From Flavobacterium sp. ASW18X (GTDB taxonomy: Bacteria; Bacteroidota; Bacteroidia; Flavobacteriales; Flavobacteriaceae), in assembly GCF_005144745.1 (NCBI RefSeq), contig NZ_SWKK01000001.1, positions 62,001 through 126,000 of the forward strand: 64,000 bases of DNA, read 5' to 3'. Position numbers and translations under genes: made by a program. Below, one piece after another: positions 31,259-50,414 of this stretch; the stretch's first letter is position 1; the number at the start of each line of letters is the position of its first letter. Under the pieces are notes generated by a model, which did not search any database, was not told the DNA's origin, and saw only the letters and a list, made by a program, of their open reading frames with translations.

Positions 31259-31753
31259 TTAATTTAGAATAGATAGTAATTTTTGGGGAGATAGATATTC
31301 AAAATATCGTTGTGTAATATTAAAATCTTTATCTAAAATAATCGTGGCAGGCAAGGAAAAAGGCGTCTCAGGTCTCGACGCTAATACTAAGGCAAGTTCA
31401 TGTGTGGGGTTTCTATGCGTTTCCAATTGTTTATTGGTAAATAGTTCTCCTCTGAATGCTATTGCTTCCTTACTTTCTGCATTCATCTTTACGGCATAAA
31501 AGTCACTATTAAGTTTAGCGATAACCTCTTTGTCTTTAAATGCTGCGGCATCCATTTTTTTACAGTACGCACACCAATCAGCGTAGAAGTTGATAAATAC
31601 TTTTTTTTGTTTTACTGCCAAAGAATCTTCTAACTGCTCAAAACTTAGCCAGTTTATGGTGGATTTTTGTGCGTTTACAGTGGAGTTAACAAGTGCTACT
31701 AATGCCAAAATTAGTAACGTTTTAAAGGGTTTAATTGTAGGTGTTGATGCCAT
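31259..31753 (-). CDS. Periplasmic thioredoxin-fold protein
   Basis: A 164-residue protein with a signal peptide (about 1-28, ending VNAQ). The thioredoxin fold has the active site 'FYADWCAYCKKMDAAAF', a CxxC redox pair, and 'LVLASRPETPFSLPATIIL' near the cis-Pro loop. It is likely a membrane-facing periplasmic disulfide reductase or chaperone of the DsbD-gamma/SoxW sort. The start is two bases after the stop of the TonB receptor gene. That tight pairing suggests it serves the receptor, whose plug contains a CxxC pair, or cargo of the same pathway. Confidence 0.87.
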   Translation of the reverse strand: MASTPTIKPFKTLLILALVALVNSTVNAQKSTINWLSFEQLEDSLAVKQKKVFINFYADWCAYCKKMDAAAFKDKEVIAKLNSDFYAVKMNAESKEAIAFRGELFTNKQLETHRNPTHELALVLASRPETPFSLPATIILDKDFNITQRYFEYLSPQKLLSILN

Positions 31754-31755
31754 TA

Positions 31756-34107
31756 TTAATGTAGTTTGCCAATTTTAAGGCCAAAGAATAGGGCTCTTGG
31801 CGCATCTGGTCCATAGATGTAATCAGAATCACGAGTTGCACCACTGTCAAAATCATTTTGGTAGCTGTTAAAAATGTTGGTTACACCACCAGAAATGGTA
31901 ATCATAAAAGATTCACTAAAATCAAAATGCGTTTCTAATTTTAGGTTCATATCAAAAAAATCACCAGATTCCCTAAGTTGTAAAAAGCCAGTATCGCTAA
32001 TTACTCTAGGGACGGTCATATTACCTGTATACGTACTGGTAACATCAACATTAAAATGTTTGTTAGGTAGCCAAGTTCCATTTATGTAACCGTAAAAATT
32101 AGGAACACGTACAAACTCGTTTACAGTAATATTAGTTTCACCAGGGATGCCATCAGTTTCAAACAACAATTGTGTTTCATCGTATTTTGTACGCTGTAAC
32201 GTTCCCCCTGCCTGAAATTGCCATTTAGGATTGGGAGAAACTCCTATTTCAAAATTAGAACCGTAAACTGTTGCACCTTTCCCATTTCTTACTTCTTCTA
32301 AGATAGAGCCGTTTTCTAAAACTGCACCAGTACTAACCAAAGTAAATGGGTCTTGTATATTGGTGTAAAATCCTTCTAATAAAACGTCTAACTGTACTAA
32401 TTTTTTTGTTTTAGCATAGTTTAAGGATGCTGTTAAAGCGTTAGAGAATTCAGTCTTTAAATTTTCTGATAGTATTACAAACTGTTGTTCTCCGCCCACA
32501 CTAGAAATGTGTAAATCTTCATTAAAAGCTTGTGGAGCGCGGAATCCACGAGCGTACCCTCCTCTAAACTTTAAATCATCTGTAATTAAATAAGATAACG
32601 TTAATCTAGGAGAAAATGCAGTTTGGTTAAGGTCTACTGTTCTAGCAATAGTGCCAATAGCATAATTGCCATCTACAGATACGTGGTCTAGACGGCCCCC
32701 TAATAGTGTGGTAAATCTCTGGGTAGGCTTCCATTCGTACTGAGCGTAGGTACCTAGACTGTTTACACTTTGGTCTATTAACCGATTGTAGCCTGCAATA
32801 TTATCTTCGGTATTACTGTAAGTATATTCTACCCCGCCGGTAAGAACATCATTGTTTTTAAAAGCTTTAGTTAATTGCAAACCATTTACCCAAGCTAAAT
32901 CTTTAGTGTCCCCAAATGCATTGTTAGCTGCGATACTATCGGCTCTAGTCCGCTCTCCTCCTAAACCACCATAATAACTATCTCTAGCAGTGTAAGAAGC
33001 AGAGGTATAAAGTTGACTGTTAAGTGTGCCATCCTTACTACGAATATCATAGTCCAATCCGCCAATAAAAGTATCGTGGTCTAACTGCTCGGTTATATCT
33101 GTAAATTGAGGCGCTAAGTCTAAACGGTCTCCACCTCTACGTTGTTCACGTATTGCATTTAAGTTTAAAGATAAACGGCTTTTGTCTGTAGGCTTAAAAA
33201 AAGCTTTAGCTCCTAAGGTATTATTGCGTAATTCTACTATTTCTGTGAAGCCATCTCCATTTGCATCATATGAGTCTCTGTTACGGTACATGCCAAAAAG
33301 CGTTATGCCACTTTTTAAATCATCCGCAACAATAGAACTATTGAAATTTACAACACGGTCTAAAGCTTCGCCATCTATAATAGCTAGGTTGCTGCCAACT
33401 TCCCATAAGTTTAATATAGGGTCCTTGGTAATTATATTCACGGTTCCTGCTATGGCATTAGAGCCAAAAAGTGCAGAGCCACCACTACGGATTACTTCTA
33501 CGCGCTCAATACTATTTGTAGGTATCTGTTCTAAACCATAAACCCCCAATAGAGAGGAGAATATAGGTCTACTATTTAAAAGAATTTGTGTGTAAGCACC
33601 ATCTAAACCATTTAGTCGTACTTGTGTAAACCCACAGTTTTGGCAGTTTGTTTCTACTCGTACGCCTGGCGCAAAATTTAAGCCCTCTGCAACGGATATA
33701 GATTGCGTTGCAGTGAGCAGTCTTGGTTTTAAAGAAGAAACAACAACAGGCGCACTTTTACGTTCCACTCGGTTTCTAGTAGCACTTATGACAACCTCAT
33801 CCAAGCCTAAAACATCTTCAATCAAATTAAAGTCAAGTTGGTTGTTTTTGGTACTGCTGATATCAACCTTCTTTTCCAAACTTCTAAAACCCTGACTTTG
33901 TACAGTAATGGTAGTAATGCCTTGTGGCAGCTTCAAAGTATATGTTCCGTTTTCATCAGAAGTTGTGCCCAGCGTTGTTCCTTTTACAAAAATACTAGCA
34001 AACGCAACGGGTTTTTTTTGACTTGTAACAGTACCACTTACCAGTTGATCTTGAGCGGTTAAATAGGTAAATAGTAAACAAAAATGTACTATAAAAAAGG
34101 TTTTCAT
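31756..34107 (-). CDS. TonB-dependent outer membrane receptor with CxxC in the plug
   Basis: A 783-residue receptor. A signal peptide (1-18) is followed by a carboxypeptidase-regulatory-like domain (VSGTVTSQKKPVAFASIFVKG). Next come the TonB box and plug ('EVVISATRNRVERKSAPVVV' to 'GSNAIAGTVNIITKD'), then a ~22-strand barrel ending in His rather than the usual aromatic. In the plug, 'NCQNCGFTQVRLNGLDG' carries two cysteines two residues apart, which is seen in a subgroup of Bacteroidota receptors. It is divergent from a DtxR-type regulator, so a metal complex is the most likely cargo (inference). A TAATTTTG element lies at 34128-34121. Confidence 0.92.
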   Translation of the reverse strand: MKTFFIVHFCLLFTYLTAQDQLVSGTVTSQKKPVAFASIFVKGTTLGTTSDENGTYTLKLPQGITTITVQSQGFRSLEKKVDISSTKNNQLDFNLIEDVLGLDEVVISATRNRVERKSAPVVVSSLKPRLLTATQSISVAEGLNFAPGVRVETNCQNCGFTQVRLNGLDGAYTQILLNSRPIFSSLLGVYGLEQIPTNSIERVEVIRSGGSALFGSNAIAGTVNIITKDPILNLWEVGSNLAIIDGEALDRVVNFNSSIVADDLKSGITLFGMYRNRDSYDANGDGFTEIVELRNNTLGAKAFFKPTDKSRLSLNLNAIREQRRGGDRLDLAPQFTDITEQLDHDTFIGGLDYDIRSKDGTLNSQLYTSASYTARDSYYGGLGGERTRADSIAANNAFGDTKDLAWVNGLQLTKAFKNNDVLTGGVEYTYSNTEDNIAGYNRLIDQSVNSLGTYAQYEWKPTQRFTTLLGGRLDHVSVDGNYAIGTIARTVDLNQTAFSPRLTLSYLITDDLKFRGGYARGFRAPQAFNEDLHISSVGGEQQFVILSENLKTEFSNALTASLNYAKTKKLVQLDVLLEGFYTNIQDPFTLVSTGAVLENGSILEEVRNGKGATVYGSNFEIGVSPNPKWQFQAGGTLQRTKYDETQLLFETDGIPGETNITVNEFVRVPNFYGYINGTWLPNKHFNVDVTSTYTGNMTVPRVISDTGFLQLRESGDFFDMNLKLETHFDFSESFMITISGGVTNIFNSYQNDFDSGATRDSDYIYGPDAPRALFFGLKIGKLH

Positions 34108-34175
34108 TAAAAAGAGGTCTCAAAATTAAATTGCAGTCTAAAACTGTTAAGTGGTAAAAAGATTAACGTAACATG

Positions 34176-34248
34176 AAATTTAGTTATCATGTAAATTAAA
34201 TTTAGACAAAGCTAAAAATTGATTTTGATAAATAAAAATGTATTTTTG
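34176..34248. promoter_or_regulatory. Divergent metal-locus control region with DtxR-box-like dyads and regulator promoter
   Basis: AATTTA (34177-34182) and TAAATT (34192-34197) form a dyad, and AAATTTAG recurs 22 bases apart (34176 and 34198). TTTAG-ACAAAG-CTAAA (34201-34216) is a 16-base inverted repeat with the outer arms of DtxR/IdeR-type boxes. Immediately beyond it lies a plus-strand promoter: TTG (34219-34221), 19 bases, TATTTTTG (34241-34248). The sites sit between the divergent TonB receptor and regulator genes, consistent with metal-dependent control of both. Binding is inferred. Confidence 0.55.
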
Positions 34249-34266
34249 AAAAAAGCTTTTAAGAGC

Positions 34267-34923
34267 GTGACAAAATCTGAAGAGAATTACATTAAAGCAA
34301 TTTATCATTTGGGTGGACATAGAAGTCAACTCATTACGACCAATGCCATTGCAGAAGAGATGGATACGAAACCCTCTTCTGTAACGGATATGGCTAAAAA
34401 ATTAGCAGATAAAGGCCTGGTAGATTATATAAAATATAGGGGTATTTCTCTTACAGAGAAAGGAACAAAAACGGCTTTATCCATCATAAGAAAGCACCGA
34501 CTTTGGGAGGTTTTTTTGGTAAAGAAATTAGATTTTTCTTGGGATGAGGTTCATGAAGTTGCGGAACAGTTAGAACATATTAAGAGCGAAAAACTAATAG
34601 ATAAAATTGACGAACTATTAGATTTTCCAAAGTTTGACCCACATGGAGATCCTATACCTTCTAAAGAGGGTGAGTTTTTTGAGCGCGATAAACAATTACT
34701 AAGTGAGGTTAGTAAGGGTCAAAGGGGGATTTGTGTGGGAGTAAAAGATACTTCTTCTGCTTTTTTAAAGTTTTTAGATAAGAACAAAATAGCGTTAGGA
34801 AATCATATAGAAATTTTAGAAAAAGAAGATTTTGATAATTCACTTTTGGTTAAAATCGAAACAAAAGAAATTCATATTTCTAATATGATAGCTAGTAATT
34901 TATACATAAAAATAAACACTTAG
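34267..34923 (+). CDS. DtxR/MntR-family metal-dependent transcriptional regulator
   Basis: About 218 residues. The N-terminal winged helix reads 'TKSEENYIKAIYHLGG' followed by 'AEEMDTKPSSVTDMAKKLADKGLVDYIKYRG'. Then come the metal-binding dimer domain ('TALSIIRKHRLWEVFLVKKL', 'EVAEQLEHIKSEKLIDKID', 'PHGDPIPSKEG') and a C-terminal FeoA/SH3-like part. It represses metal uptake genes when Mn(II) or Fe(II) is bound. No ATG is near the start. GTG 34267 gives the conserved N-terminus and lies 19 bases beyond the -7 element, whereas the TTG at 34219 overlaps the -33 element and cannot be translated from that transcript. The ZIP gene follows without a gap. Confidence 0.9.
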   Translation: MTKSEENYIKAIYHLGGHRSQLITTNAIAEEMDTKPSSVTDMAKKLADKGLVDYIKYRGISLTEKGTKTALSIIRKHRLWEVFLVKKLDFSWDEVHEVAEQLEHIKSEKLIDKIDELLDFPKFDPHGDPIPSKEGEFFERDKQLLSEVSKGQRGICVGVKDTSSAFLKFLDKNKIALGNHIEILEKEDFDNSLLVKIETKEIHISNMIASNLYIKINT

Positions 34924-35745
34924 ATGGAACAGGTAATTGCTTATTTTGAAACCATAGATCCCATTTTGGCCGCTTTGTATGCAACTTTATTTACTTGGGG
35001 CCTAACTGCTGCTGGTGCAGGATTAGTTTTTTTATTTAAAAGTCCTAATAGAGCTTTAATGGATGGTATGTTAGGTTTTACTGGGGGGGTCATGGTGGCA
35101 GCAAGTTTTTGGAGTTTACTGGCGCCAGGCATAGAAATGAGTCCGGGGGAAGGTTTTGTTAAAGTGATTCCCGCCGCGGTAGGCTTTTTATTAGGTGCTG
35201 GTTTTATTTTTGGGTTAGATAAAATCTTACCCCATTTGCATATAAATTTTAAAGTAGATGAAGCCGAAGGTATTAAGACCCCTTGGCACCGAACTGTACT
35301 TTTAGTTTTAGCTATTACCCTGCATAATATACCAGAAGGTTTGGCTGTGGGTGTACTATTTGGAGGGGTAGCTTCTGGTTTTGAGGGTGCTACTATTGGT
35401 GGGGCGGTTGCTTTAGCTCTTGGTATTGGCTTGCAAAATTTTCCAGAAGGGTTTGCCGTGGCAGTACCAATGCGCAGACATGGCTTAAGCCGCAGAAAAA
35501 GCTTTATGTACGGGCAGGCTTCTGCTATTGTAGAACCTATCGCTGGGGTTTTAGGCGCTTGGGCGGTTTTGACTTTTGAGCCTATTTTACCTTATGCATT
35601 AGCATTTGCTGCAGGAGCCATGATTTTTGTGGTAGTAGAAGAAGTAATACCTGAAACTCAGCAAGATAAGTATACAGACATAGCAACGATGGGCTTTATA
35701 GGCGGATTTATCATCATGATGACCTTAGATGTAGGGCTAGGATAG
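34924..35745 (+). CDS. ZIP-family divalent metal transporter
   Basis: A 273-residue inner membrane protein with eight helices. The metal-site helices are both present: TM4 'HNIPEGLAVGVLFGG' and TM5 'NFPEGFAVAVPMRRHG'; the latter has Asn in place of the His found at that point in many ZIPs. Proteins of this sort import Zn, Fe or Mn. The ATG directly abuts the stop of the DtxR-type regulator, so the pair is an operon and the regulator probably controls the transporter. Given the regulator, manganese or iron is likelier than zinc. Confidence 0.92.
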   Translation: MEQVIAYFETIDPILAALYATLFTWGLTAAGAGLVFLFKSPNRALMDGMLGFTGGVMVAASFWSLLAPGIEMSPGEGFVKVIPAAVGFLLGAGFIFGLDKILPHLHINFKVDEAEGIKTPWHRTVLLVLAITLHNIPEGLAVGVLFGGVASGFEGATIGGAVALALGIGLQNFPEGFAVAVPMRRHGLSRRKSFMYGQASAIVEPIAGVLGAWAVLTFEPILPYALAFAAGAMIFVVVEEVIPETQQDKYTDIATMGFIGGFIIMMTLDVGLG

Positions 35746-39309: not shown

Positions 39310-39339
39310 TTTGTGGTCTAAAATTTGCATTTATCTTTG
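39310..39339 (+). promoter_or_regulatory. Promoter of the hydrolase-like lipoprotein gene (start of Pel-like locus)
   Basis: TTTG (39310-39313), an 18-base spacer, TATCTTTG (39332-39339). ATG 39352 is 12 bases further on, so a longer frame from TTG 39325 is excluded. This is the only clear promoter at the left edge of the exopolysaccharide locus. Confidence 0.65.
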
Positions 39340-39351
39340 AAAGCTGAATTT

Positions 39352-40380
39352 ATGAAAGATATGCTACACAGAGGTTTTATTTTTTCAGTATTGATGGGGG
39401 TCTTCTTCCTCACTTGTTCTCAAACCACTCAAGAGTTTGAAGAGACAGTAATGATACCTACTGAAGAAGCGCCTTTGAGTGCTACCTATTATAAGGATGA
39501 AATGCGAGCCTTTGTTATAGAGATATCCCGTTACGCAAAAGAAAAAAATCCAGAATTCAGCATAATTCCACAAAATGGTATAGAATTAGTAACCTTAGAT
39601 GGTGCAGAAGAGGGTGTATTAGCTGTAGACTATTTAAATGCTATAGACGGTCACGGGCAGGAATCATTATGGTACGGAGATCCAAGGGATAACTCGGAAA
39701 CAGGTAATAGCAGAACAAGGTATTTACTAAGTTATCTAGAAAAATCTCAGGCAGAAGGTAATGCCATATTGGTAACCGATTACTGCCGTACGACCAATAA
39801 GATAACTACAAGCATAAATAATGCAAAAGAGAAAGGATTCACTCATTTTGTAGCTACTGAAAGAGAATTAAATGTAATACCTACAGAAGCTTACGATATA
39901 CCAAATGAGAATGCCAATGATATTGTGAAATTAACAGATGCTAAAAATCATCTCTTCTTCTTAAACTATTCTGCATATCCATCTAAAACTGCTTTGTTAG
40001 GGGCATTACAAGCTACTAATTATGACGTTTTAATTATAGATGTTTTTTTTGCTACAGAGCAGCAATTCACTGTAGAGGACATCACCGCTTTAAAAACCAA
40101 AGCTAATGGGGGTAAAAGAAAGGTGATTGCCTATATGTCTATTGGCGAAGCAGAAGATTATCGCTTTTACTGGGACAACAATTGGGACTTTGAGCCCCCG
40201 GTGTGGTTATCTGAAGAAAATCCTGATTGGCCAGGTAATTTTAAAGTAAAATATTGGGAGCAAGATTGGCAAAACACTATTATTTACAATCAAAACTCCT
40301 ATTTAAATTTAATACTGTCATCGCAGTTTGACGGTGTTTATTTGGATATTATCGATGCATTTGAATTCTTTGAGGATTAG
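39352..40380 (+). CDS. GH114/TM1410-like (PelA-hydrolase-like) lipoprotein
   Basis: 342 residues with a lipobox FFLTC (acylated Cys22). The body is a TIM-barrel of the GH114/TM1410 group, which is related in fold to the PelA hydrolase domain (GH166). Telling blocks are 'LLIDVFF'-type strand 'NYDVLIIDVFF', 'KVIAYMSIGEAEDYRFYW' and 'FDGVYLDIIDAFEF'; the acidic residues in the last two are the catalytic candidates. It may cut alpha-1,4-linked amino sugar polymers such as galactosaminogalactan or Pel. It lies 130 bases before the PelF gene, with its own promoter. Whether it is GH114 or GH166 cannot be settled by eye. Confidence 0.8.
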   Translation: MKDMLHRGFIFSVLMGVFFLTCSQTTQEFEETVMIPTEEAPLSATYYKDEMRAFVIEISRYAKEKNPEFSIIPQNGIELVTLDGAEEGVLAVDYLNAIDGHGQESLWYGDPRDNSETGNSRTRYLLSYLEKSQAEGNAILVTDYCRTTNKITTSINNAKEKGFTHFVATERELNVIPTEAYDIPNENANDIVKLTDAKNHLFFLNYSAYPSKTALLGALQATNYDVLIIDVFFATEQQFTVEDITALKTKANGGKRKVIAYMSIGEAEDYRFYWDNNWDFEPPVWLSEENPDWPGNFKVKYWEQDWQNTIIYNQNSYLNLILSSQFDGVYLDIIDAFEFFED

Positions 40381-40510: not shown

Positions 40511-42046
40511 TTGAGCAATAATAAGAACATACTTCTTGTTACAGAAGGTACGTACCCATACAAAGGCGGCGGAGTCTCTACGTGGGCACATTACCTTACC
40601 CAAAATATTAAGGATTTTGATTTTAGCCTGTATGCGCTTACCGCAGATGTGGAATATAAACCTATATATGATTTAGGAACCTCGGTTAAAGAAATAGTGC
40701 AAATCCCTGTTTGGTCTCCAGAAGAACCGTATGACTGTGTAGATTATAATGAAGAATATAAAACCATTCTTATGCGTAGGGAGATGACCACCTATGAGAA
40801 TGTTCAAAATTTATTTGTACCCCATTTTAAACTCTTTCTAGAAAATACGTTTAAGGACGCTCCACAAACGGATGCAGATTTAGAAGCGATTAAAAAGGCA
40901 TTCATAAAAATGTGGCAATTTTTTAATAATTACGATTACAAATCTACTTTAAGAAGTGAGTCTGTTTGGAACAGTTTTAATCATTGTATTTCAAAAATTT
41001 GGCCACAGAAAGAATTTAAGGAGGCAACTTTGCAAGATATGAGTATGGGTATCCGATTAATTTATCGGTTTTTAATTCCATTAGCCATAGATCCCCCAAA
41101 GTCAGATATTACCCATTTAACCATTGCGGGGACTGGAATTATACCAGCGCTTAAGAATAAAGAAAAATATGGCGCTAAAACAATGTTAACCGAACATGGT
41201 GTTTTTATTAGAGAGCGCATGTTAGCAATAAGTAAGACCGCTTATTCTCCTTTTTTAAAAAGACTATTAATTGTTTTTTCTGAAATGTTAACTCGGTTAA
41301 CCTATAGAGAGTGCGACCGTATATTAACAGTGAGTAAATTTAATATAGAATGGGCACTACGTTATGGAGCAAAGAAAGAAAAAGTAAATGTGGTTTATAA
41401 TGGGGTAGAGTCGGCTAAGTTTATTCCTGCAAAAATTACCATTAAAAAAGACCGGCCAACAGTTGTGGCTGCCGCTAGGATTTTCGATTTAAAAGATATC
41501 ATTACGATGATTAAGGTTTGTGCAGAAGTGCGCAAATCTATTCCAAATGTGCTTTTTCTGGTGTATGGTAATAAAGATGCTGTTCCGGAATATACAGAAC
41601 AATGCGAAAATTTAATCTCAGAGTTAGCATTAGAAGACCATTTTAAACTTGCTGGTTTTCATAATAAACCGCAAGAATTGTTTTTAGAGGGTGATATCTC
41701 TATTCTCACCTCTATTTCTGAAGGGTTCCCTTATACTGTTATAGAATCTATGAGTTGTAGCATACCTGTAGTAGCTACGGATGTTGGTGGTGTTACAGAA
41801 GCGCTAACAGAAGAATGTGGGTTTGTTTGCAAGCCTAGAGACTTTATTGCTATTGCGGATAAAGTTGTAGCGATATTGAAAGATGATATACTTCGTAAAA
41901 AAATGGGAGAGGCAGCTAGAAAAAGAGTTTTAGAACTTTTTACTATAGAACAATTTATTGCATTGTTTGAAAAAGAATATCAAGCTTTGGTAACGCCAGT
42001 ATCTCAATTAAAAAAAGAATCACTAAAGCAGATTCAGATAGCTTAA
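40511..42046 (+). CDS. pelF: PelF-type GT4 glycosyltransferase
   Basis: A 511-residue cytoplasmic GT-B enzyme that polymerises the Pel sugar chain from UDP-GalNAc-type donors. The N-terminal 'NILLVTEGTYPYKGGGVSTWAHYL' is the PelF hallmark. The insertion with 'FNHCISKIWPQKEF' and the 'MLTEHGVFIRERML' block follow. The C-terminal donor site has 'ISEGFPYTVIESMSCSIPVVATDVGGV', the GT4 E-x7-E motif. The only possible start is TTG 40511, since an in-frame stop lies four codons upstream. The stop TAA overlaps the next ATG by one base. It is the first gene of a tight five-gene run. Confidence 0.88.
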   Translation: MSNNKNILLVTEGTYPYKGGGVSTWAHYLTQNIKDFDFSLYALTADVEYKPIYDLGTSVKEIVQIPVWSPEEPYDCVDYNEEYKTILMRREMTTYENVQNLFVPHFKLFLENTFKDAPQTDADLEAIKKAFIKMWQFFNNYDYKSTLRSESVWNSFNHCISKIWPQKEFKEATLQDMSMGIRLIYRFLIPLAIDPPKSDITHLTIAGTGIIPALKNKEKYGAKTMLTEHGVFIRERMLAISKTAYSPFLKRLLIVFSEMLTRLTYRECDRILTVSKFNIEWALRYGAKKEKVNVVYNGVESAKFIPAKITIKKDRPTVVAAARIFDLKDIITMIKVCAEVRKSIPNVLFLVYGNKDAVPEYTEQCENLISELALEDHFKLAGFHNKPQELFLEGDISILTSISEGFPYTVIESMSCSIPVVATDVGGVTEALTEECGFVCKPRDFIAIADKVVAILKDDILRKKMGEAARKRVLELFTIEQFIALFEKEYQALVTPVSQLKKESLKQIQIA

Positions 42047-43647
42047 TGGATACAGTAGATAGGTACAATGAACTAAGTGCAAAAGTAATTGCACAAGTGG
42101 GCAAACCCCAAGGGTTATTGGTGGTGTACGCAGCATTAGAATCTTTTGGTATTCGCAACCAAGATACCAAAGAAGATTACGGGTTTGCATCTTTACAAGA
42201 TTTGGCAGCTGCTATTTACAATCAAATTGTAGCCATGCCTGCGGAAGACGTTAAAAATACGGTAGAAAAAAAAGAACAATCAACGCAAGCCTACCTGCCA
42301 GTTAATGAGTATTCTAAGGTGAAATTGAACTGGTTTGCTAAGTATTATGGGCTGGGTTTGTTTTATTTGCTACCTATCTTTATACAAGTATTTGCCATTA
42401 TTTACTTTAATTATTCGCTTTGGACCTACCTTAAATTTAATATTGTACAATCTACCGCAGTGGTCCTTGGAGTCATCTTTGGATTTGTAATATCTGGTGG
42501 TTTTGTGCAACTTATGGGAAGACAAGCCTTTTTCTATTGGGAGCATAAAAAATATGCTAAGACCAGGCATCTCATTTATTCCTATACGCAAGCAGGAATA
42601 AAATTGTTTTTGGTAGCAGTGCTACTCCTGTTTCTAATTAATTTTTTGCTTCACTGGTTTCCGTTGCCATTTATGTTTGTTTTGTGTGGTTATACCTTTA
42701 TGTTAGCTACATTATTACTAACTATAGCACCTTTCTATCCCCTTAAAAAGAGATGGGCGGTCACCATTACTATAACATTAGCAACGGTAATAGCTTTGGT
42801 CTTGCACGAGGGTTTTAAGATGCATGTTTATGTAAGTCATTTTTTGGGACTGGCTGCAGCAATCACCTTTAACCTAGCATTTACTTGGTATTTTTTTAGA
42901 CAAAAAATAGGTGCGGATAAAAAAGAATACGAGCGTCCATCTAAAATAAAAGTGTTTTACAATAACTACCCATACTTTTTTTACGGAATGCTTTTATATG
43001 TGTTTGTTTTTATGGATCGTATAATTGCTTGGTCTGCCAATTGGACAAATAATTTTAAGTTCCCTTTGCTTTATGAAAAAAATTATGAGATAGGTATGGA
43101 TTTAGCTATTCTTATGTTTTTTGCGCTTGTAGGTGTTGGAGAATATGCCATTGCAGAATTTAGTAGAAAATTGGACCAGAATCAGAAAGGCTTAGCTTCT
43201 ACAGATGGTAAGGCATTTGGTAATCATTTTAAAAAATTATACCGTAGCCATATCTTAATTCTTTGGATTACCGCAATAATTTCAAGTGTTCTTATCTACA
43301 TTTTGGTAACCGAACCTTGGGGTTATATTGCCAAGTTTGGAGAGGAGTTGGCAACTACAAGCATGCATGTTTCTATTGCCGGTGCATTAGGCTATATTTT
43401 CTTGAGCTGGGGTATGCTCAATGTACTTTATATGTTTACACTCAATGTTGTAAGGCCTAGTTTGCGTGCTCTAGCAATTGCGATAGTTGTTAATTTTTGT
43501 TGTGGATTTCTTTTAAGTAGAGCGTTTACGCATGATTTAAGCGTATATGGTATGTTGCTAGGGGCGATTGTATTTACCATACTTACCTATAAACACTTGC
43601 ATAATTTTTTTAACCGTTTAGACTTTCACTACAGTGCTGCTTATTAA
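42046..43647 (+). CDS. pelG: PelG-like polysaccharide flippase with N-terminal extension
   Basis: A 533-residue inner membrane protein. Residues ~100-520 hold about 12 helices of the MATE/MVF type, with 'YYGLGLFYLLPIFIQVFAIIYF', 'YFFYGMLLYVFVFMDRIIAWSA' and 'IGMDLAILMFFALVGVGEYA', all PelG-like. The first ~95 residues are soluble (ELSAKVIAQVGKPQGLLVVY, 'FASLQDLAAAIYNQIVAMPAEDV') and are not part of the known ~456-residue PelG. PelG is thought to move the polymer across the inner membrane with PelF. The start overlaps the pelF stop by one base. Confidence 0.82.
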   Translation: MDTVDRYNELSAKVIAQVGKPQGLLVVYAALESFGIRNQDTKEDYGFASLQDLAAAIYNQIVAMPAEDVKNTVEKKEQSTQAYLPVNEYSKVKLNWFAKYYGLGLFYLLPIFIQVFAIIYFNYSLWTYLKFNIVQSTAVVLGVIFGFVISGGFVQLMGRQAFFYWEHKKYAKTRHLIYSYTQAGIKLFLVAVLLLFLINFLLHWFPLPFMFVLCGYTFMLATLLLTIAPFYPLKKRWAVTITITLATVIALVLHEGFKMHVYVSHFLGLAAAITFNLAFTWYFFRQKIGADKKEYERPSKIKVFYNNYPYFFYGMLLYVFVFMDRIIAWSANWTNNFKFPLLYEKNYEIGMDLAILMFFALVGVGEYAIAEFSRKLDQNQKGLASTDGKAFGNHFKKLYRSHILILWITAIISSVLIYILVTEPWGYIAKFGEELATTSMHVSIAGALGYIFLSWGMLNVLYMFTLNVVRPSLRALAIAIVVNFCCGFLLSRAFTHDLSVYGMLLGAIVFTILTYKHLHNFFNRLDFHYSAAY

Positions 43648-44440
43648 AAAAAATATTGTGATGATAAGCTTTTTGAGTATGGCTAGCCTTTGGACTACAA
43701 AAACCAATGCGCAGCAAGATTTTGTGGTAAGTTATGCTAAGGTGAACCCAGAGGCATTACCAGAAAATATAAAGTTATTGATTGTAGAAGGGAGTTTATA
43801 CAATGTAGAAGAGGTTAAAGCACTAAAGGCAAAGTGCAATTTAGTGCTGGCATACATTAGTTTCACAGAAATAAGTAAGGACGATTCGAGTTATGATTTA
43901 TTTGCTCCCTATACAATTGGGGAGAATGAAACTTGGGGAAGTTGCTATATTAATCTTAAAGACAGAACAGCTTTAGGTCTTATGAAAAAACGGGCCTTGT
44001 CTCTTTTGCAAAAAGGGTTTGATGGTTTGTTTTTAGATACTATGGATAATGTTGGTGCTTGGGGAAATGTGCCAGAATTAAAAGGTGAGGTACTGCACTT
44101 AATCCAAACCATTAATGAGGAGGAGAAACCCAAAGTATGGGTGCAAAATGGGGGCTTGGATGTATTGCCACAAACACATCAACTTATAACTACGGTATTG
44201 GTAGAATCGGTTGCTACGGATTACGACTTTAATAAAAAAGTATACCGATTAAGAGGCCAACAAGACTTTAACCAAAGAAAACAGCAACTATTAAAAGCCA
44301 AAAAAGAATTTAAAATAGAGATTTTGGTGGTAGAGTATGCTTTAAAAGAAGCATTGAAACAACAAATCAAAGAGCGGTTAAGTGGGCTGCCATTGTCTTA
44401 CTATGTAAGCAATATTGCCTTAAATCAGTATAAATATTAA
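43634..44440 (+). CDS. Secreted GH114/PelA-hydrolase-like protein
   Basis: A 268-residue secreted TIM-barrel protein of the same broad family as the lipoprotein at 39352, but short and without a lipobox. Blocks: 'NLVLAYISFTEISKDDSSYD', 'WGSCYINLKDRTALGLMKKRA', 'GFDGLFLDTMDNVGAWG' and 'PKVWVQNGGLDVL'. The start is GTG 43634, which overlaps pelG by 14 bases and supplies the basic part of the signal peptide (LLIKKN); ATG 43661 is a possible alternative. In P. aeruginosa the equivalent hydrolase is the N-terminal domain of PelA; here it is a separate gene inside the operon. A trimming or editing role is inferred. Confidence 0.78.
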   Translation: MLLIKKNIVMISFLSMASLWTTKTNAQQDFVVSYAKVNPEALPENIKLLIVEGSLYNVEEVKALKAKCNLVLAYISFTEISKDDSSYDLFAPYTIGENETWGSCYINLKDRTALGLMKKRALSLLQKGFDGLFLDTMDNVGAWGNVPELKGEVLHLIQTINEEEKPKVWVQNGGLDVLPQTHQLITTVLVESVATDYDFNKKVYRLRGQQDFNQRKQQLLKAKKEFKIEILVVEYALKEALKQQIKERLSGLPLSYYVSNIALNQYKY

Positions 44441-44449
44441 GCATAATAG

Positions 44450-46432
44450 ATGTTCGATAATTTTTTAATAGCGCCGTTTAGACTTATCCTATTGTTATTA
44501 GGCTTATTGGTGATACATCAATTTGCGGTTAGACAACATTTGCAAAATTATACGTATTCTTATTTTGTTAGGCGTACAGCTATATATGGTGCGGCACTAA
44601 TAGTGGGGATGTTTGTTTTAGTACAATTAAACATGTATAGTACGTTTACCCTAATTTTACTATTATTTGGTATTTCTTTTTATAAATATTTTAGAATAGG
44701 TTCCTTATTAAATCCTGGAGAAAAAGATAAAAACCTTAAAAGGCGTATGCTAATCACGTTTTTCATTTTCTTGGAAAAAAGGGAGCGTAATCTTAAAAAA
44801 TTATGGCATAAAGAGCTAAAAAATTACCTACCCAAACAATTTCATAAACCAACCATGTTATTATTGAGTATTGGTTTTGTTGCTATTCTTATGCGTTTTG
44901 GTTATGTAAGCTTAGATAGTTATACTTTATCTAAATCTTGGTTAGAATCATTAGACGTTGTAAAAAACTTTGATGATAATTTTTGGCTTATAGATGATTA
45001 TAAAGTTGTTGGTGAATTAGCGCTTGTAAATGTGTATGCCAAACTAACAGGGATTAGCAAGGAAATGGCGTTGTATACCTTTGGTTTTATAGAGGCCTTT
45101 ATGCTTTGTACGGTCATTTTTTATTTGATTGCAACGTTTACGCAATCCCGATGGAAATTGCCCTTTATAGGCACTATGTTTTTTGCTGCTGTATTTTATC
45201 TTTTGCCTTTAAATCCTAGTATTATTATGGAGCATTCGCCTATTTATTTGGGTCTTTTCTTTGCTCTAATATTTTTTGTTTTTCTGTGTAGACCAAAGCA
45301 GATAGCCCATTTTGAGGCAAAGTATTTTTTAGTACAGTTTTTATTGGTTAGTGCGGTTGCTTTAATAAATTATTACGTGCTATTTATGTTAATGCCAATT
45401 CTGTTGGTTGCATCCCTTGTAGATTTTGGTAAAAACAAGAAATTTATTGTCAAAAGTATTTTAGCTTATTTATTAGCAACATCACTAATGGTAGGTATAA
45501 AGTTATTTGTATGCTATGCCAGACAAATTGATATTTATACATTCTTTACCAGCAACATACTTAGTGTAGATACCTATTCTTACTTCCCTACTTTGTTGGT
45601 AGACTTTAATACTCTATTATTACTTTATCAAATCACGGCTTGTATAGGGCTATTGGGACTTATATTTTTGAGATTAAGTAAAAAGAATATAGGGCCTAAT
45701 TTATCATTTACAATTTTCTTCCTTTTAGCATTCAATATTAGTGTTATTGGTTTTAAATGGATGGATATAGATTTGTTTTTTAAAGCACTTGGGGTGCTAT
45801 ATCCTATACAATTTGCCATTTCTTTATATGCTGTTTTGCGCTTGTTAGATATGATTTTAATCAGGAAAATAGTTTGGTTAAAATTCAAAAGAGTGGGCAC
45901 CATACTGCTACTTGCGTTTTTAACGATTACTACCTTGATGGTAGATGTAACTGCTGCTAAGTCTACTAAAACAGGCGAAGTAAAAAAGGAAATTGTACAC
46001 CTTTATGACAAGTTATACCGTAATCAATTTCAAAATAGTTACATCGTAGTAAATAATTATTACGGCTATAAACTGGCACAAAAAGAGCATCTGTTTCTAA
46101 CGCATCAACAATTTATTAAGGATTACGCCCAAAGAGATTCCATTTTTCATGCTAAGAAAAATTTGGGTGCGCAGGTAGCATTAGAAGATGATGAAATTCT
46201 TCCAGAAAGTGTTTTTGTTGTTGTAACCAAAGATAACGCTCCAGAGTCTTTATTCCATACAAAAGAAGAGGCGTCTACTAATATTATGGCCTTATTAGAG
46301 CAGCTAAAAGGTAGAGGGCGTTCCATAAGAACCTACCAGGAAACAGAACATTTAAAAGTTTTAGAAATAATCAATGCTCCTAATCTTAGTAGCATTAATG
46401 AAATGATATTTAATTATGACCAAGGGATTTAA
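44450..46432 (+). CDS. Multi-pass membrane protein of unknown function in the Pel-like operon
   Basis: 660 residues. There are three helices in the first 85 residues, then a charged cytoplasmic-looking stretch with 'FLEKRERNLKKLWHKELKNYL'. A second bundle of about 10 helices spans ~135-510, and a soluble C-terminal part of ~140 residues carries 'LYDKLYRNQFQNSYIVVNNYYGYKLA'. The first loop of the second bundle is acidic ('NFDDNFWLIDDYKVVGEL'), as in GT-C glycosyltransferases, but I cannot assign a family. It is neither PelD (GAF/GGDEF) nor PelE (TPR) by eye, yet it occupies their place. It starts nine bases after the hydrolase gene and overlaps the next gene by 17. Confidence 0.72.
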   Translation: MFDNFLIAPFRLILLLLGLLVIHQFAVRQHLQNYTYSYFVRRTAIYGAALIVGMFVLVQLNMYSTFTLILLLFGISFYKYFRIGSLLNPGEKDKNLKRRMLITFFIFLEKRERNLKKLWHKELKNYLPKQFHKPTMLLLSIGFVAILMRFGYVSLDSYTLSKSWLESLDVVKNFDDNFWLIDDYKVVGELALVNVYAKLTGISKEMALYTFGFIEAFMLCTVIFYLIATFTQSRWKLPFIGTMFFAAVFYLLPLNPSIIMEHSPIYLGLFFALIFFVFLCRPKQIAHFEAKYFLVQFLLVSAVALINYYVLFMLMPILLVASLVDFGKNKKFIVKSILAYLLATSLMVGIKLFVCYARQIDIYTFFTSNILSVDTYSYFPTLLVDFNTLLLLYQITACIGLLGLIFLRLSKKNIGPNLSFTIFFLLAFNISVIGFKWMDIDLFFKALGVLYPIQFAISLYAVLRLLDMILIRKIVWLKFKRVGTILLLAFLTITTLMVDVTAAKSTKTGEVKKEIVHLYDKLYRNQFQNSYIVVNNYYGYKLAQKEHLFLTHQQFIKDYAQRDSIFHAKKNLGAQVALEDDEILPESVFVVVTKDNAPESLFHTKEEASTNIMALLEQLKGRGRSIRTYQETEHLKVLEIINAPNLSSINEMIFNYDQGI

Positions 46433-49400
46433 GTATTTATGTCTTGTTTTGGTGTTGCTTTATGGTTGTCAACCAGGTAAGGATTTACAAAAAGATTGGA
46501 GTAATGTTAAACGTAATAACTCCAATCCCGTATTGGCTTATATAGGACAAAAAAACAATACGTACACCAATTTGGCAAAGGTTACGGATTATGCAAAATT
46601 GCCTTTAACAACAATTGGTAAAGATCAATTTAACCTAACCACAAAAATACCTAGTTCTGTAAAATTACTATGTGTTTCTAATACATTTGAGTTAAATGAA
46701 AGAGCGGTAGATACCTTACATGCCTTTGTAGCCAGAGGTGGTAGTCTCTTTTTAGTAAATGTTAATGCAGATGAACGTATGGCTTATTTAATGGGTATGG
46801 ACCCCACATACAAACTTAATAGGGATGCATCTGCTAAAGGTTATTTTTTAAAAGAAGAATTGTTTCCAGAAGCTAAAGGTAAAGTACATCCGGGATTAAA
46901 TTATGTACATAATGGTTTTGCTGCTGACAATTTTAAAGATGATATAAAAGTATGGGTAACTGCTAAAAACAATAAAGCTTATCCATTAATTTTTGAGCAT
47001 AGGATTGGGAAGGGAAAAGTTATTGTGCATAATACGGACGATAATTTTTATAAGGTCTCTAGAGGCGTGCTGTTTTCTAGTCTACTATTAGGTTTAGAAG
47101 GTATGCCTTACCCGGTTTCTAATGTGGCTAATGTACATTTAGATGATTTTCCTGCGCCTGTATACAATATCTACAAAGAACCTGTAAAAAGCAATCAAAA
47201 CATTACCATGGCCAAATACTTTACAGATGTTTGGTGGCCAGATATGTTAGATTTAGCAAAACGGTTAGAACTTAAATATACGGCCTACCCGGCTTTTGAT
47301 TACAATTATAATGTAAAACCACCTTTTATTTTTACAGAATGGGAGGCCAATAAATTTAGGCGTAGCGGTTATGAAGAAGAAATTAGCAATTGGTTTGGAA
47401 GAGAGCTGTTAAAAAATGGTCATGAACTTGGTTTGCATGGCTACAATCACGTTTCCTTAACTAAAGAAGAATGGCCTAATCCAGACTATATGGTTACGGC
47501 TTTGAATTCAGCAGAAAAGAAATGGAAAACGGCAAAGTTTGGGGCGTTGCCAGTGTCTTACGTGCCACCCTCTAATGTAATAGATAGTGTGGGGTTGGCT
47601 AAACTAGAAGAGGCGTTCCCTTCTTTGAGGTACATGCAGAGTCAATACTTAGGAGATTTTGATAGGGGCAGTAATAGAGAATACGACCCAGACAGGTGGA
47701 ATCCCCATTTTTTTGATTATCCAAGGATTAGCAGTGGGTTTGAAATATCGGACGATTTAAAAATTGAAATTCATTCGTTGTTTTTATTTACAGGAATATG
47801 GAATCATTTTTTGCATCCAGACGATGTTTTTCAAATCCCAGATGGCTCTAATAAAAAAACAAGTGGTCATTACAGCTATAGAAATGCCAACCAACTACCT
47901 TGGCGTAGTAGCAATGAAAAAAAAGGATTGTATGAAACTTTTGAAGAAGAGTTATTATCCTTTAAAAGTAAATACCCTTACACGCGTTTTGTTACCGCTA
48001 AAGATGGTTCTGAGTTTACTATTAAATGGCGATATGCCAAGTACGAACACACCGATGAAGACGGTGTTCATATGGTATTTTCAGACAGTTATGGTAAAGA
48101 AGAAAAAGAACACCTATGGTTTGCGTATGTGCCAAAAGATAAGGCTACTAAATTTGAACAAGATTTAACTGGAAATGTTCTAGAATTCTCAAAGCTACCA
48201 ATATTAAACGGTCATTTGTATCAAATAAAAACACACGACCCATTTATTGCCGTAGGAGAGCTTACAACTAAAACAGGTGAAGATGATTTTGCCGTTATCT
48301 CTAGAGTTAAGGCAGAGAGAAAAACGTTCCAAGATTTTAAATTCCAATTTTTACCCTTAACCATGAAATTAGAAAAATTGGTTAATACTGGGGAGTATGG
48401 AAAGGCTGCGGAAGAATTGGAAAAGCATGTTACCGCAGGGAATAGGTTAACGACTTCTCATTGGAAAAAATACGCAGATTTAATGTTAGGTGCTAACAGA
48501 CAAGAAGGTATGTGGGATTATTTTGATACGTATTTTAAAACTTCAGAAGATTACGCTTTTTTACATACAGTACATCAAATTGGTAAAGAACACGGATTTA
48601 ATAATGATGCAGTACAGAAACTTTGGTTTGATAGAATCCTTAAAGCTGAACAAGGTAGTTCAGATTTGTTAAAAGAATATATTTCTTCATTTTATACGGA
48701 TGGTAACCTCAAAAATATCAAAGAAGCTTATAGACAATTAAGTCGTATTTCTGGTAACACAGAAGACCAAAGGGCCTACATAAAATTTTTACTAGATAAT
48801 AAAGATGCTGATTTAAGTTTGGCCTTAGCAACTGTTGAGCCTTGTGAAGCAACCTATAGAGCAATGGCAACAGAATTGGCTTGGTATTACGCAGATGCTT
48901 TAGATTATACCAATGCTTTAGATTGGGCGTATTGTTCTGATGCTATTGATAAGGATACTAAAGATTTTTGGTTTTTAAAATCTACGCGTTTTGAAGCGTT
49001 GAAAGAAACTAACCCAGCTGAATATTATGGTATTTTGATAAGAACGGATGAGGATAAAGCTTATGCAGAGTTAATGTCTAAATCTTATTGTGCAAAAGAA
49101 CTAGTGCCAATAGCAGATAAAATTGCAATACTCTTTGGCGCTAGAGAAAATTATAAAGGAGCTTTGGCATGGACAGACTGCGCAACAACAGTACCGGTCA
49201 AAAATTTGCTCACTTGGAATTATGAGGTAAGGCGCTACACTAAGATGAAGCGTATTTATCAGGATTATATGGATTTATATCCAGAAGATAATGAGGTAAG
49301 GTACCATATGGCTACTTTACTAATGTATACAGGTGATTTAAACGGTGCAGCAAAAATCACCAATGAAATAGCAAGTGGAAAAAACTTTATTGACCTACGG

Positions 49401-50414
49401 GGAAAAATTAATAAAAACATAGAATACCTCCCTGTTAGTGAGCAAATATATTTGGTTGGTAAGTATCCTAAACTGTTTAGCGATAATACCAAAACAGCAT
49501 TGCGGTCTAAAGAGCGACTTTTAGAAGGCCACGATGTGTTTTTTAAAGGTAATTCTATGAATGATAGATTAGACCCAACAGTTCTTAACTTTAAGGGAGG
49601 GTATAATCTAAGAGACAAGAAGAATAATATCCATGCCTTGGCAGGTGTTAGAGGTTTTGTGTACCCCATAAATTTTATTGGAGATACTTTAGATAATGAG
49701 GAACGGAATTTATTAGGCTTGGAATATATTTTTAAGAATGATAGGAATAAAGAATACGATTTAACCCTAAGTGCAAGAATAGAAGGGGATAATTTTAACA
49801 ATACGTTTTTCCACGCTGCTGCTAGTGTTAGCTTTGCTAAGGAAAAAAACTTTTATAGTAATAAATTGAGTTTTAATCCAGTACCTACTGGGCCAGGATA
49901 TGTGCGTGGAATATACATGGCAACAGTAGAAAGTTATAATGAGCTGCAGTTATTGCCCAAATTAACACAAATAATAAACATAGAAGGCAATTACTTTACA
50001 GATGCTGCCTTTATGGCTACGGGTACCGCTAGAACCTCTTATAATCTGCTTGATGTAAACGCTAATTGGCAACTGGGGCCTTTGGTAGAAGCCTCTTACG
50101 GTGTTGCTAGTCTAGATCAAAGGGATGGTTTTCCATATTGGTTGGCAGATAAGCGTTTTATTGGGGGAGCTGGTGTAAGTCTAATCATAGGGAAACAAGA
50201 AAATAAGTTTTACTTGGATAGTAGTGCAACTTATTTTTATGAAAATCAGAATCAGCCAAATTTTGAAAGGTATTTAGCCAACATCAACGCTAATTTAGGA
50301 AGGTATTTTACTGTAAGTGCGGGAGCAGAATTTTATACTATAGAAAACTTTTTCTCAAATGCTTTTAACTTAGGTTTTACCTACCATTTAAAGCCATTTA
50401 AGTATAATTTTTAA
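46416..50414 (+). CDS. DUF2194 deacetylase-like / TPR-like / outer membrane beta-barrel fusion lipoprotein (PelA-PelB-like)
   Basis: 1332 residues. Lipobox LLYGC (Cys18). Residues ~35-220 resemble a glutamine-amidotransferase-like fold ('FVARGGSLFLVNV'). The CE4-like site follows: D243-D244 in 'VHLDDFPAP', H341 and H345 in 'HELGLHGYNH', and 'SYVPPSN'. This arrangement is DUF2194. From ~646 to ~1045 the chain is helical with TPR-like pairs ('LEKLVNTGEYGKAAEELEKH', 'YRAMATELAWYYADALDYTN'). From ~1046 to the C-terminal Phe it is alternating strands ('SAGAEFYTIENFFSNAFNLG'), a barrel of PelB size. In P. aeruginosa these functions are split between PelA and PelB, which bind each other. Deacetylation coupled to export is inferred. 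Confidence 0.82.
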   Translation: MTKGFKYLCLVLVLLYGCQPGKDLQKDWSNVKRNNSNPVLAYIGQKNNTYTNLAKVTDYAKLPLTTIGKDQFNLTTKIPSSVKLLCVSNTFELNERAVDTLHAFVARGGSLFLVNVNADERMAYLMGMDPTYKLNRDASAKGYFLKEELFPEAKGKVHPGLNYVHNGFAADNFKDDIKVWVTAKNNKAYPLIFEHRIGKGKVIVHNTDDNFYKVSRGVLFSSLLLGLEGMPYPVSNVANVHLDDFPAPVYNIYKEPVKSNQNITMAKYFTDVWWPDMLDLAKRLELKYTAYPAFDYNYNVKPPFIFTEWEANKFRRSGYEEEISNWFGRELLKNGHELGLHGYNHVSLTKEEWPNPDYMVTALNSAEKKWKTAKFGALPVSYVPPSNVIDSVGLAKLEEAFPSLRYMQSQYLGDFDRGSNREYDPDRWNPHFFDYPRISSGFEISDDLKIEIHSLFLFTGIWNHFLHPDDVFQIPDGSNKKTSGHYSYRNANQLPWRSSNEKKGLYETFEEELLSFKSKYPYTRFVTAKDGSEFTIKWRYAKYEHTDEDGVHMVFSDSYGKEEKEHLWFAYVPKDKATKFEQDLTGNVLEFSKLPILNGHLYQIKTHDPFIAVGELTTKTGEDDFAVISRVKAERKTFQDFKFQFLPLTMKLEKLVNTGEYGKAAEELEKHVTAGNRLTTSHWKKYADLMLGANRQEGMWDYFDTYFKTSEDYAFLHTVHQIGKEHGFNNDAVQKLWFDRILKAEQGSSDLLKEYISSFYTDGNLKNIKEAYRQLSRISGNTEDQRAYIKFLLDNKDADLSLALATVEPCEATYRAMATELAWYYADALDYTNALDWAYCSDAIDKDTKDFWFLKSTRFEALKETNPAEYYGILIRTDEDKAYAELMSKSYCAKELVPIADKIAILFGARENYKGALAWTDCATTVPVKNLLTWNYEVRRYTKMKRIYQDYMDLYPEDNEVRYHMATLLMYTGDLNGAAKITNEIASGKNFIDLRGKINKNIEYLPVSEQIYLVGKYPKLFSDNTKTALRSKERLLEGHDVFFKGNSMNDRLDPTVLNFKGGYNLRDKKNNIHALAGVRGFVYPINFIGDTLDNEERNLLGLEYIFKNDRNKEYDLTLSARIEGDNFNNTFFHAAASVSFAKEKNFYSNKLSFNPVPTGPGYVRGIYMATVESYNELQLLPKLTQIINIEGNYFTDAAFMATGTARTSYNLLDVNANWQLGPLVEASYGVASLDQRDGFPYWLADKRFIGGAGVSLIIGKQENKFYLDSSATYFYENQNQPNFERYLANINANLGRYFTVSAGAEFYTIENFFSNAFNLGFTYHLKPFKYNF

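Follow-up and report, generated by a model that had tools for sequence, protein, structure and literature searches.

Can a single polypeptide both trim a polysaccharide and release it from the cell? The question is raised by a gene in a 64,000-nucleotide stretch of Flavobacterium sp. ASW18X DNA (contig NZ_SWKK01000001.1, positions 62,001 to 126,000; hereafter the window), which lies at 46416-50414 on the plus strand and for which a sequence-only reading had proposed a one-chain fusion of a PelA-type deacetylase with a PelB-like export protein. The handover of polymer from PelA to PelB and the need for PelC are named as open questions in the literature (PMC12022489, PMC12141448, PMC13254593). 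The gene begins with ATG, shares its first 17 nt with the end of the upstream gene and encodes 1332 residues in one frame without an internal stop, exactly as first described; in the strain's own 3.6 Mb genome, the single match was the gene itself. Domain content, catalytic residues, a predicted barrel, operon, distribution and split counterparts were obtained by computation, and the protein is probably a single chain that both processes and exports a Pel-like polymer of alpha-1,4-linked N-acetylgalactosamine or galactosamine (GalNAc/GalN).

The N-terminal half matched DUF2194 (PF09960; residues 50-555, E 6e-70), the sole Pfam family above cut-off, and phmmer against the PDB recovered one solved relative, PelADA of Bacillus cereus (9ZAU; E 3e-40, residues 51-474), the founding member of CE26 and CBM114, which deacetylates alpha-1,4-GalNAc oligomers (PMC13254593). 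In the window protein, the domains assigned are a CBM114-like N-terminal domain at residues ~30-225 (46503..47090; placed by the 9ZAU match, which starts at residue 51, and by the domain description in PMC13254593), a CE26-like deacetylase domain at residues ~235-520 (47118..47975, edges approximate; Pfam, alignment and model) and a beta-rich domain at residues ~543-614 (48042..48257; model) in the place of the third domain on the PelADA domain list. PelADA residues D262, D263, H350, H354, P405, R458, H488 and D491 correspond to D243, D244, H341, H345, P384, R437, H467 and D470, with identical R-H (30) and P-H (83) spacings. The deacetylase site first picked out (D243-D244, H341, H345 and SYVPPSN) was in place and incomplete, with P384, R437, H467 and D470 to be added. 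All eight residues are kept in 69 of 71 rows including the window (the other two carry P384A) in a scan selected on patterns that include part of these motifs; 29 of the 30 rows in a set drawn from the nearest relatives and 395 sampled Bacteroidota genomes keep them as well. A CE4-like deacetylase fold, as had been expected, is predicted around D243, H341 and H345; against CE4-type enzymes, this part reached a best VIA-align Z of 18.6, and 9ZAU was absent among the 50 matches listed. By the Pfam scan and the 9ZAU match, the chain contains DUF2194/CE26 but lacks a hydrolase domain, unlike PelA with GH166 and CE21. The label of PelA deacetylase would hold for a Pel-type deacetylase and fails for the family, which is CE26 with CBM114 rather than the CE21 and GH166 of P. 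aeruginosa PelA. Judged by sequence, the enzyme half is of PelADA type, a predicted metal-dependent deacetylase.

For the export half, phmmer of residues 629-1332 alone against the PDB returned two chance matches only. A profile of 32 relatives matched designed PPR/TPR (tetratricopeptide repeat) proteins (best E 3.6e-8) and gave weak matches to BcsC (E 0.013) and PelB (E 0.019, in the TPR region and not in the barrel), and six of the 32 relatives matched TPR_14 (best 2e-19). An AlphaFold2 model of residues 226-1332 from 68 sequences (mean predicted local distance difference test score, pLDDT, 87.4; predicted template modelling score, pTM, 0.50) comprises the deacetylase fold, the beta-rich domain, helices and 16 strands. 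The helical TPR-type region spans residues 624-1037 (48285..49526), and the predicted 16-stranded outer-membrane barrel spans residues 1040-1324 (49533..50387), in agreement with the ~400 helical and ~285 strand residues and the C-terminal barrel anticipated from the sequence. The first five Foldseek matches were BcsC (9b8h, 9b8a, 6tzk), 4y25 and PelB. With VIA-align, 4y25 gave Z 22.9 (3.3 A, 270 aligned), BcsC Z 21.8-22.0 and PelB 9h80 Z 21.3 (5.9 A, 330 aligned), and the next barrel Z 14.6. Entry 4y25 is titled as a polysaccharide outer-membrane secretin, which we take to be PgaA. A 16-stranded barrel is common to PelB, BcsC and PgaA (PMC12141448), and the export half is predicted to be a TPR region plus 16-stranded barrel as in these exporters. 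The fold alignment (A2) held 68 of 71 rows, leaving out L117, L130 and one member of a >90% identical pair; the other alignments held 32 rows (A3) and 45 of 72 rows (A4; 71 relatives plus the window).

Like B. cereus PelADA, the fusion shows CBM and CE homology with the same assigned catalytic residues, a beta-rich domain after the CE domain and a PelF/PelG context. Unlike it, PelADA is described as a 610-residue protein, helix-anchored in the cytoplasmic membrane with no TPR or barrel, and its operon, unlike the window operon, has PelD and PelE (PMC13254593). P. aeruginosa PelB shares the TPRs and the 16-stranded barrel and partners a Pel deacetylase, but the account in PMC12141448 gives it no enzyme in the chain and couples it to a PelC ring. 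Pseudomonas PelA is likewise a periplasmic Pel deacetylase working with a TPR exporter, yet it belongs to another esterase family (CE21), carries a GH166 hydrolase in its chain and has a separate exporter (PMC12022489), whereas the GH114 proteins here are separate genes. A fusion of enzyme and pore is not new in kind, because the Zymomonas BcsZ-BcsC fusion also joins an enzyme to an outer-membrane polysaccharide pore, although for cellulose and with a glycoside hydrolase instead of a deacetylase (PMC7112194). A PelADA-exporter fusion was not described in titles or abstracts among the matches listed in the open-licence PMC literature, which is no proof of novelty; DUF2194 itself comes up in at least two of the papers listed. 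Many Flavobacterium relatives would have an enzyme that probably trims a biofilm sugar polymer and a probable release channel in one protein, whereas these are separate proteins in other bacteria.

The fused frame is not a product of chance, because 27 of 395 sampled Bacteroidota genomes carry a strong DUF2194 match in a frame of this length and the C-terminal profile matches the same 27. DUF2194 was matched at E 1e-5 in 31 of the 395; the 27 strong matches (E < 1e-50) all belong to frames 1268-1349 residues long. Four weak, partial matches make up the rest, in frames of 506-776 residues, and one of these is above the family cut-off. The C-terminal profile, run on 390 genomes, added one weak TPR-region match; as at most three first-look candidates were scored per genome, stand-alone Bacteroidota exporters may be missed. 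Matches occur in 13 of 299 Flavobacteriaceae genomes and in four of 60 nearest relatives, a patchy distribution as expected of an accessory operon. Among the best 80 of 221 confirmed relatives, 70 are full-length fusions (of the remaining ten, contig ends truncate three, one is broken and six are deacetylase alone), and carriers include Maribacter, Cellulophaga, Salegentibacter, Flavobacterium, Tenacibaculum, Roseivirga, Gracilimonas and Fodinibius. These loci extend Pel-type systems to Flavobacteriaceae, Roseivirga and Balneolaceae, and suggest a function for DUF2194 in Bacteroidota.

In the KSB1-bacterium phylum-level group, homologous halves are found in the same order as two genes. DUF2194 occurs in seven of 82 genomes, in frames of 624-689 residues, and in all seven the next downstream gene, separate and overlapping or abutting, matches the fusion's C-terminal profile. 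Four of these downstream genes are complete (642-646 residues, ending in Phe), two are contig-cut and one has 190 residues; TPRs were matched at E 6e-28 in the one scanned with Pfam. PelG and the GT-C-like gene described below lie upstream where the contig reaches, and pelADEFG genes have already been reported in KSB1 genomes (PMC9012183). Three Kryptonia loci have the deacetylase alone, and elsewhere in those genomes the C-terminal profile gave TPR-region matches only. The simplest account of the fused gene is that two adjacent genes, which mostly overlap, became joined. In the deacetylase tree (60 of 97 rows, after manual thinning of near relatives), the fused and split states need two changes, and a single branch was not rejected by the approximately unbiased (AU) test (p 0.165); the window protein groups with Croceitalea dokdonensis (57% identity in the deacetylase part) among the Flavobacteriaceae.

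Several other observations were made on these loci. A frame artefact was considered for the fusion and dropped, the long frame being kept in 29 relatives and in 70 of the 80 loci. An internal TAG flagged in two relatives was their ordinary stop, after ...WLF. The window protein does end in Phe, as the sequence-only reading had pointed out, but this is not a family trait, because an aromatic last residue is found in only 10 of 70 relatives. The operons of Flavobacterium covae and F. davisii (L140, L117) have several genes in pieces, and the operon genes are whole in F. columnare (L113). Fodinibius sediminis has, besides L118, a second version of 1586 residues (L130:9824-14584) with a different operon order. 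The titles of L116 (Limnohabitans metagenome-assembled genome, MAG) and L145 (Actinomycetota MAG) conflict with their placement among Flavobacterium and KSB1-type genomes, probably through binning or naming errors.

The fusion is the last gene of a conserved operon on the plus strand. Ahead of it are a GH114/TM1410-family protein (39325..40380, 351 residues; PF03537 E 7e-17), a PelF glycosyltransferase (40511..42046, 511 residues; NF038011 at 149.6 bits, cut-off 100), a PelG-like membrane transporter (42046..43647, 533 residues), a GH114-family protein (43634..44440, 268 residues; PF03537 E 1.2e-10) and a 660-residue membrane protein whose gene (44450..46432) overlaps that of the fusion. The GH114/TM1410 gene adjoins the operon in several Flavobacteriaceae. 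The fungal GH114 enzyme Ega3 cleaves a polymer of alpha-1,4-galactosamine and breaks up Pel biofilms (PMC10485009). The 660-residue protein had no recurring Pfam family (two families, each in one of 45 relatives, E 0.0017-0.0034) and no PDB sequence match. Its model (pLDDT 85, pTM 0.86) matches an oligosaccharyltransferase (OST) complex chain, DPY19, ALG12, ALG9, AftA and ArnT (E 2e-5 to 3e-3; query TM 0.32-0.37), which we take to be GT-C (glycosyltransferase C) enzymes, and the protein is predicted to be GT-C-like in fold class only. This gene lies directly upstream in 68 of 70 full-length fusions (within 30 nt in 66, overlapping in 36), and GH114 accompanies 68, PelG 67 and PelF 65. Among the five loci with missing genes, four have their start close to the end of a contig, and the fifth, L146, a short contig, carries other genes immediately upstream of the fusion. 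At L035, other genes lie between the GT-C-like gene and the fusion.

The window operon has no room for a PelC-, PelD- or PelE-sized gene, PelC not having been sought genome-wide, and scans of it showed no PelD or PelE gene; a PelD search of the strain's own genome gave no match, though no control matched either. The lack of space for PelC in the window operon is the basis on which we suggest PelC independence. The operon of L035 has SpoIIE-type phosphatase and HATPase genes (Pfam), similar-looking genes were judged by eye to be present at L146 and the KSB1-type loci L164-L170, and such genes may provide partner-switch control in place of cyclic di-GMP. The extra genes at L037, a Balneolaceae-type operon, code for a kinase, a receiver, a second DUF3492 glycosyltransferase and an HD-domain protein.

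Substrate, direction, coupling and PelC absence are what we infer beyond these data. PelF would build the chain in the cytoplasm, and PelG, with the GT-C-like partner, would carry it across the inner membrane. The CBM114/CE26 part would then catch the polymer and, using the metal that it binds, strip acetyl groups from it. Within the same chain, the TPR superhelix would guide the polymer, and the 16-stranded barrel would let it out of the cell. Binding of PelA to PelB enhances deacetylation in P. aeruginosa (PMC12022489), and the covalent fusion would replace this non-covalent contact.

Several points weigh against a Pel-processing exporter. In the window, the PelG assignment (PF16933) stands at E 0.066 and misses the curated cut-off; it reaches E <= 0.001 in three of 16 relatives (best 9.9e-8), the other 13 falling short. 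Profile matches to DUF2194 and to the PelB barrel had both been expected; the former was obtained, but Pfam B-barrel_PelB_C gave no match at E 1 in the window protein or its own genome. The pTM of 0.50 makes the relative placement of domains unreliable, and in the three-domain PelADA layout the CE and beta-rich domains appear in the model and the CBM by sequence alone. Polymer identity would follow from PelF, GH114 and CE26 only, and the GT-C-like partner, to which none of PelA-G corresponds, could point to another polymer or to a decorated one. An architecture correctly read with a cargo other than Pel, namely a related galactosamine- or hexosamine-containing polymer that the GT-C-like protein helps to build or decorate, is the alternative we take most seriously, although we consider it rather unlikely. 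The near-constant position of the GT-C-like gene, the missing PelD and PelE in the window operon and the second DUF3492 glycosyltransferase of L037 all speak for it, but PelF scores above its equivalog cut-off, and GH114 and CE26 both suit alpha-1,4-GalN(Ac).

Two other explanations keep the domains and change what they do. The barrel might be an anchor or receptor holding the deacetylase at the outer membrane instead of an export pore. Orphan copies, described below, are retained although searches of their genomes found neither PelF nor the GT-C-like gene, so that a barrel can be useful without this polymer; however, the nearest folds belong to dedicated polysaccharide exporters and score far above other barrels, the Pfam scan showed no second exporter gene in the window operon, and the split homologues hold the same position in KSB1-type operons, which leaves the anchor very improbable. 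It is also very improbable that the chain is cut after secretion into deacetylase and exporter, the fusion fixing stoichiometry only. The two-gene form in KSB1-type genomes and a TPR region whose length differs between relatives would suit such a cut, whereas both halves share one frame in 27 sampled genomes, a weak point given that processing signals were not searched for.

New here are three full-length orphan copies lacking the zinc site, from genomes in which neither PelF nor the GT-C-like gene was found. These copies (G005, G584 and G783; 1304-1315 residues, frame intact; L063:12029-15943, L185:4130-8077 and L186:11714-15643) lie outside any pel-like operon, and the ~20 kb of sequence inspected around each contains none of the operon genes. 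Genome searches did not find PelF (above cut-off) or the GT-C-like gene in the three genomes, and found both in five of five operon-bearing genomes searched alongside. The zinc site is lost in all three: G005 is changed at all eight positions, and G584 and G783 lost H341, H345 and P384 (one also H467 and D470) and keep D243 and D244. Among 14 Flavobacteriaceae copies (13 plus the query), the 11 next to a GT-C-like gene keep all eight residues, unlike the three orphans. At least two losses of the zinc site are supported, a single orphan clade being rejected (AU p 0.013), although the G005 branch is long. Around G005, loss of the operon is suggested because relatives of genes flanking the operon in the window (31259-35745) still adjoin the fusion.

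Identity between two orphan orthologues is 84% in the CBM, 71% in the barrel, 69% in the esterase and 59% in the TPR region, whereas in four of four operon-borne pairs the CBM ranks below the esterase in conservation. The proportion of nonsynonymous differences in the orphans (pN 0.085-0.241) is far below that of silent ones (pS 0.737-0.788), which speaks for selection acting on the proteins, although dN/dS values are rough because silent sites are near or at saturation. We tentatively propose, as a joint claim that falls somewhat short of an even chance, that the chain is self-contained without PelB, PelC, PelD or PelE, and that synthase-less orphans in Flavobacteriaceae, zinc-less at least twice over and with the CBM best conserved, were kept as non-enzymatic carbohydrate-binding outer-membrane pores with a new cargo. 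In the fused chain, deacetylase, guide and pore can be mutated separately within one gene, which makes their coupling easy to test, and the natural split and catalytically dead versions are ready controls.

At its N-terminus, the window protein has a signal sequence with the lipobox-like LYGC and Cys18 (46416..46469; simple lipobox rule), and an NCBIfam scan gave no match for the protein. The lipobox reported earlier is present in this protein without being universal: a lipobox-like site was found in 64 of 71 rows including the window by the same rule, and in 23 of 30 rows of the other set by eye. The lipid anchor is inessential to the design, because a lipobox-like N-terminus is frequent but not universal. 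The topology that the sequence-only reading had called unusual is less odd than claimed, and the anchor itself is not a constant feature here; a lipid anchor and a barrel also occur together in OprM and NalP.

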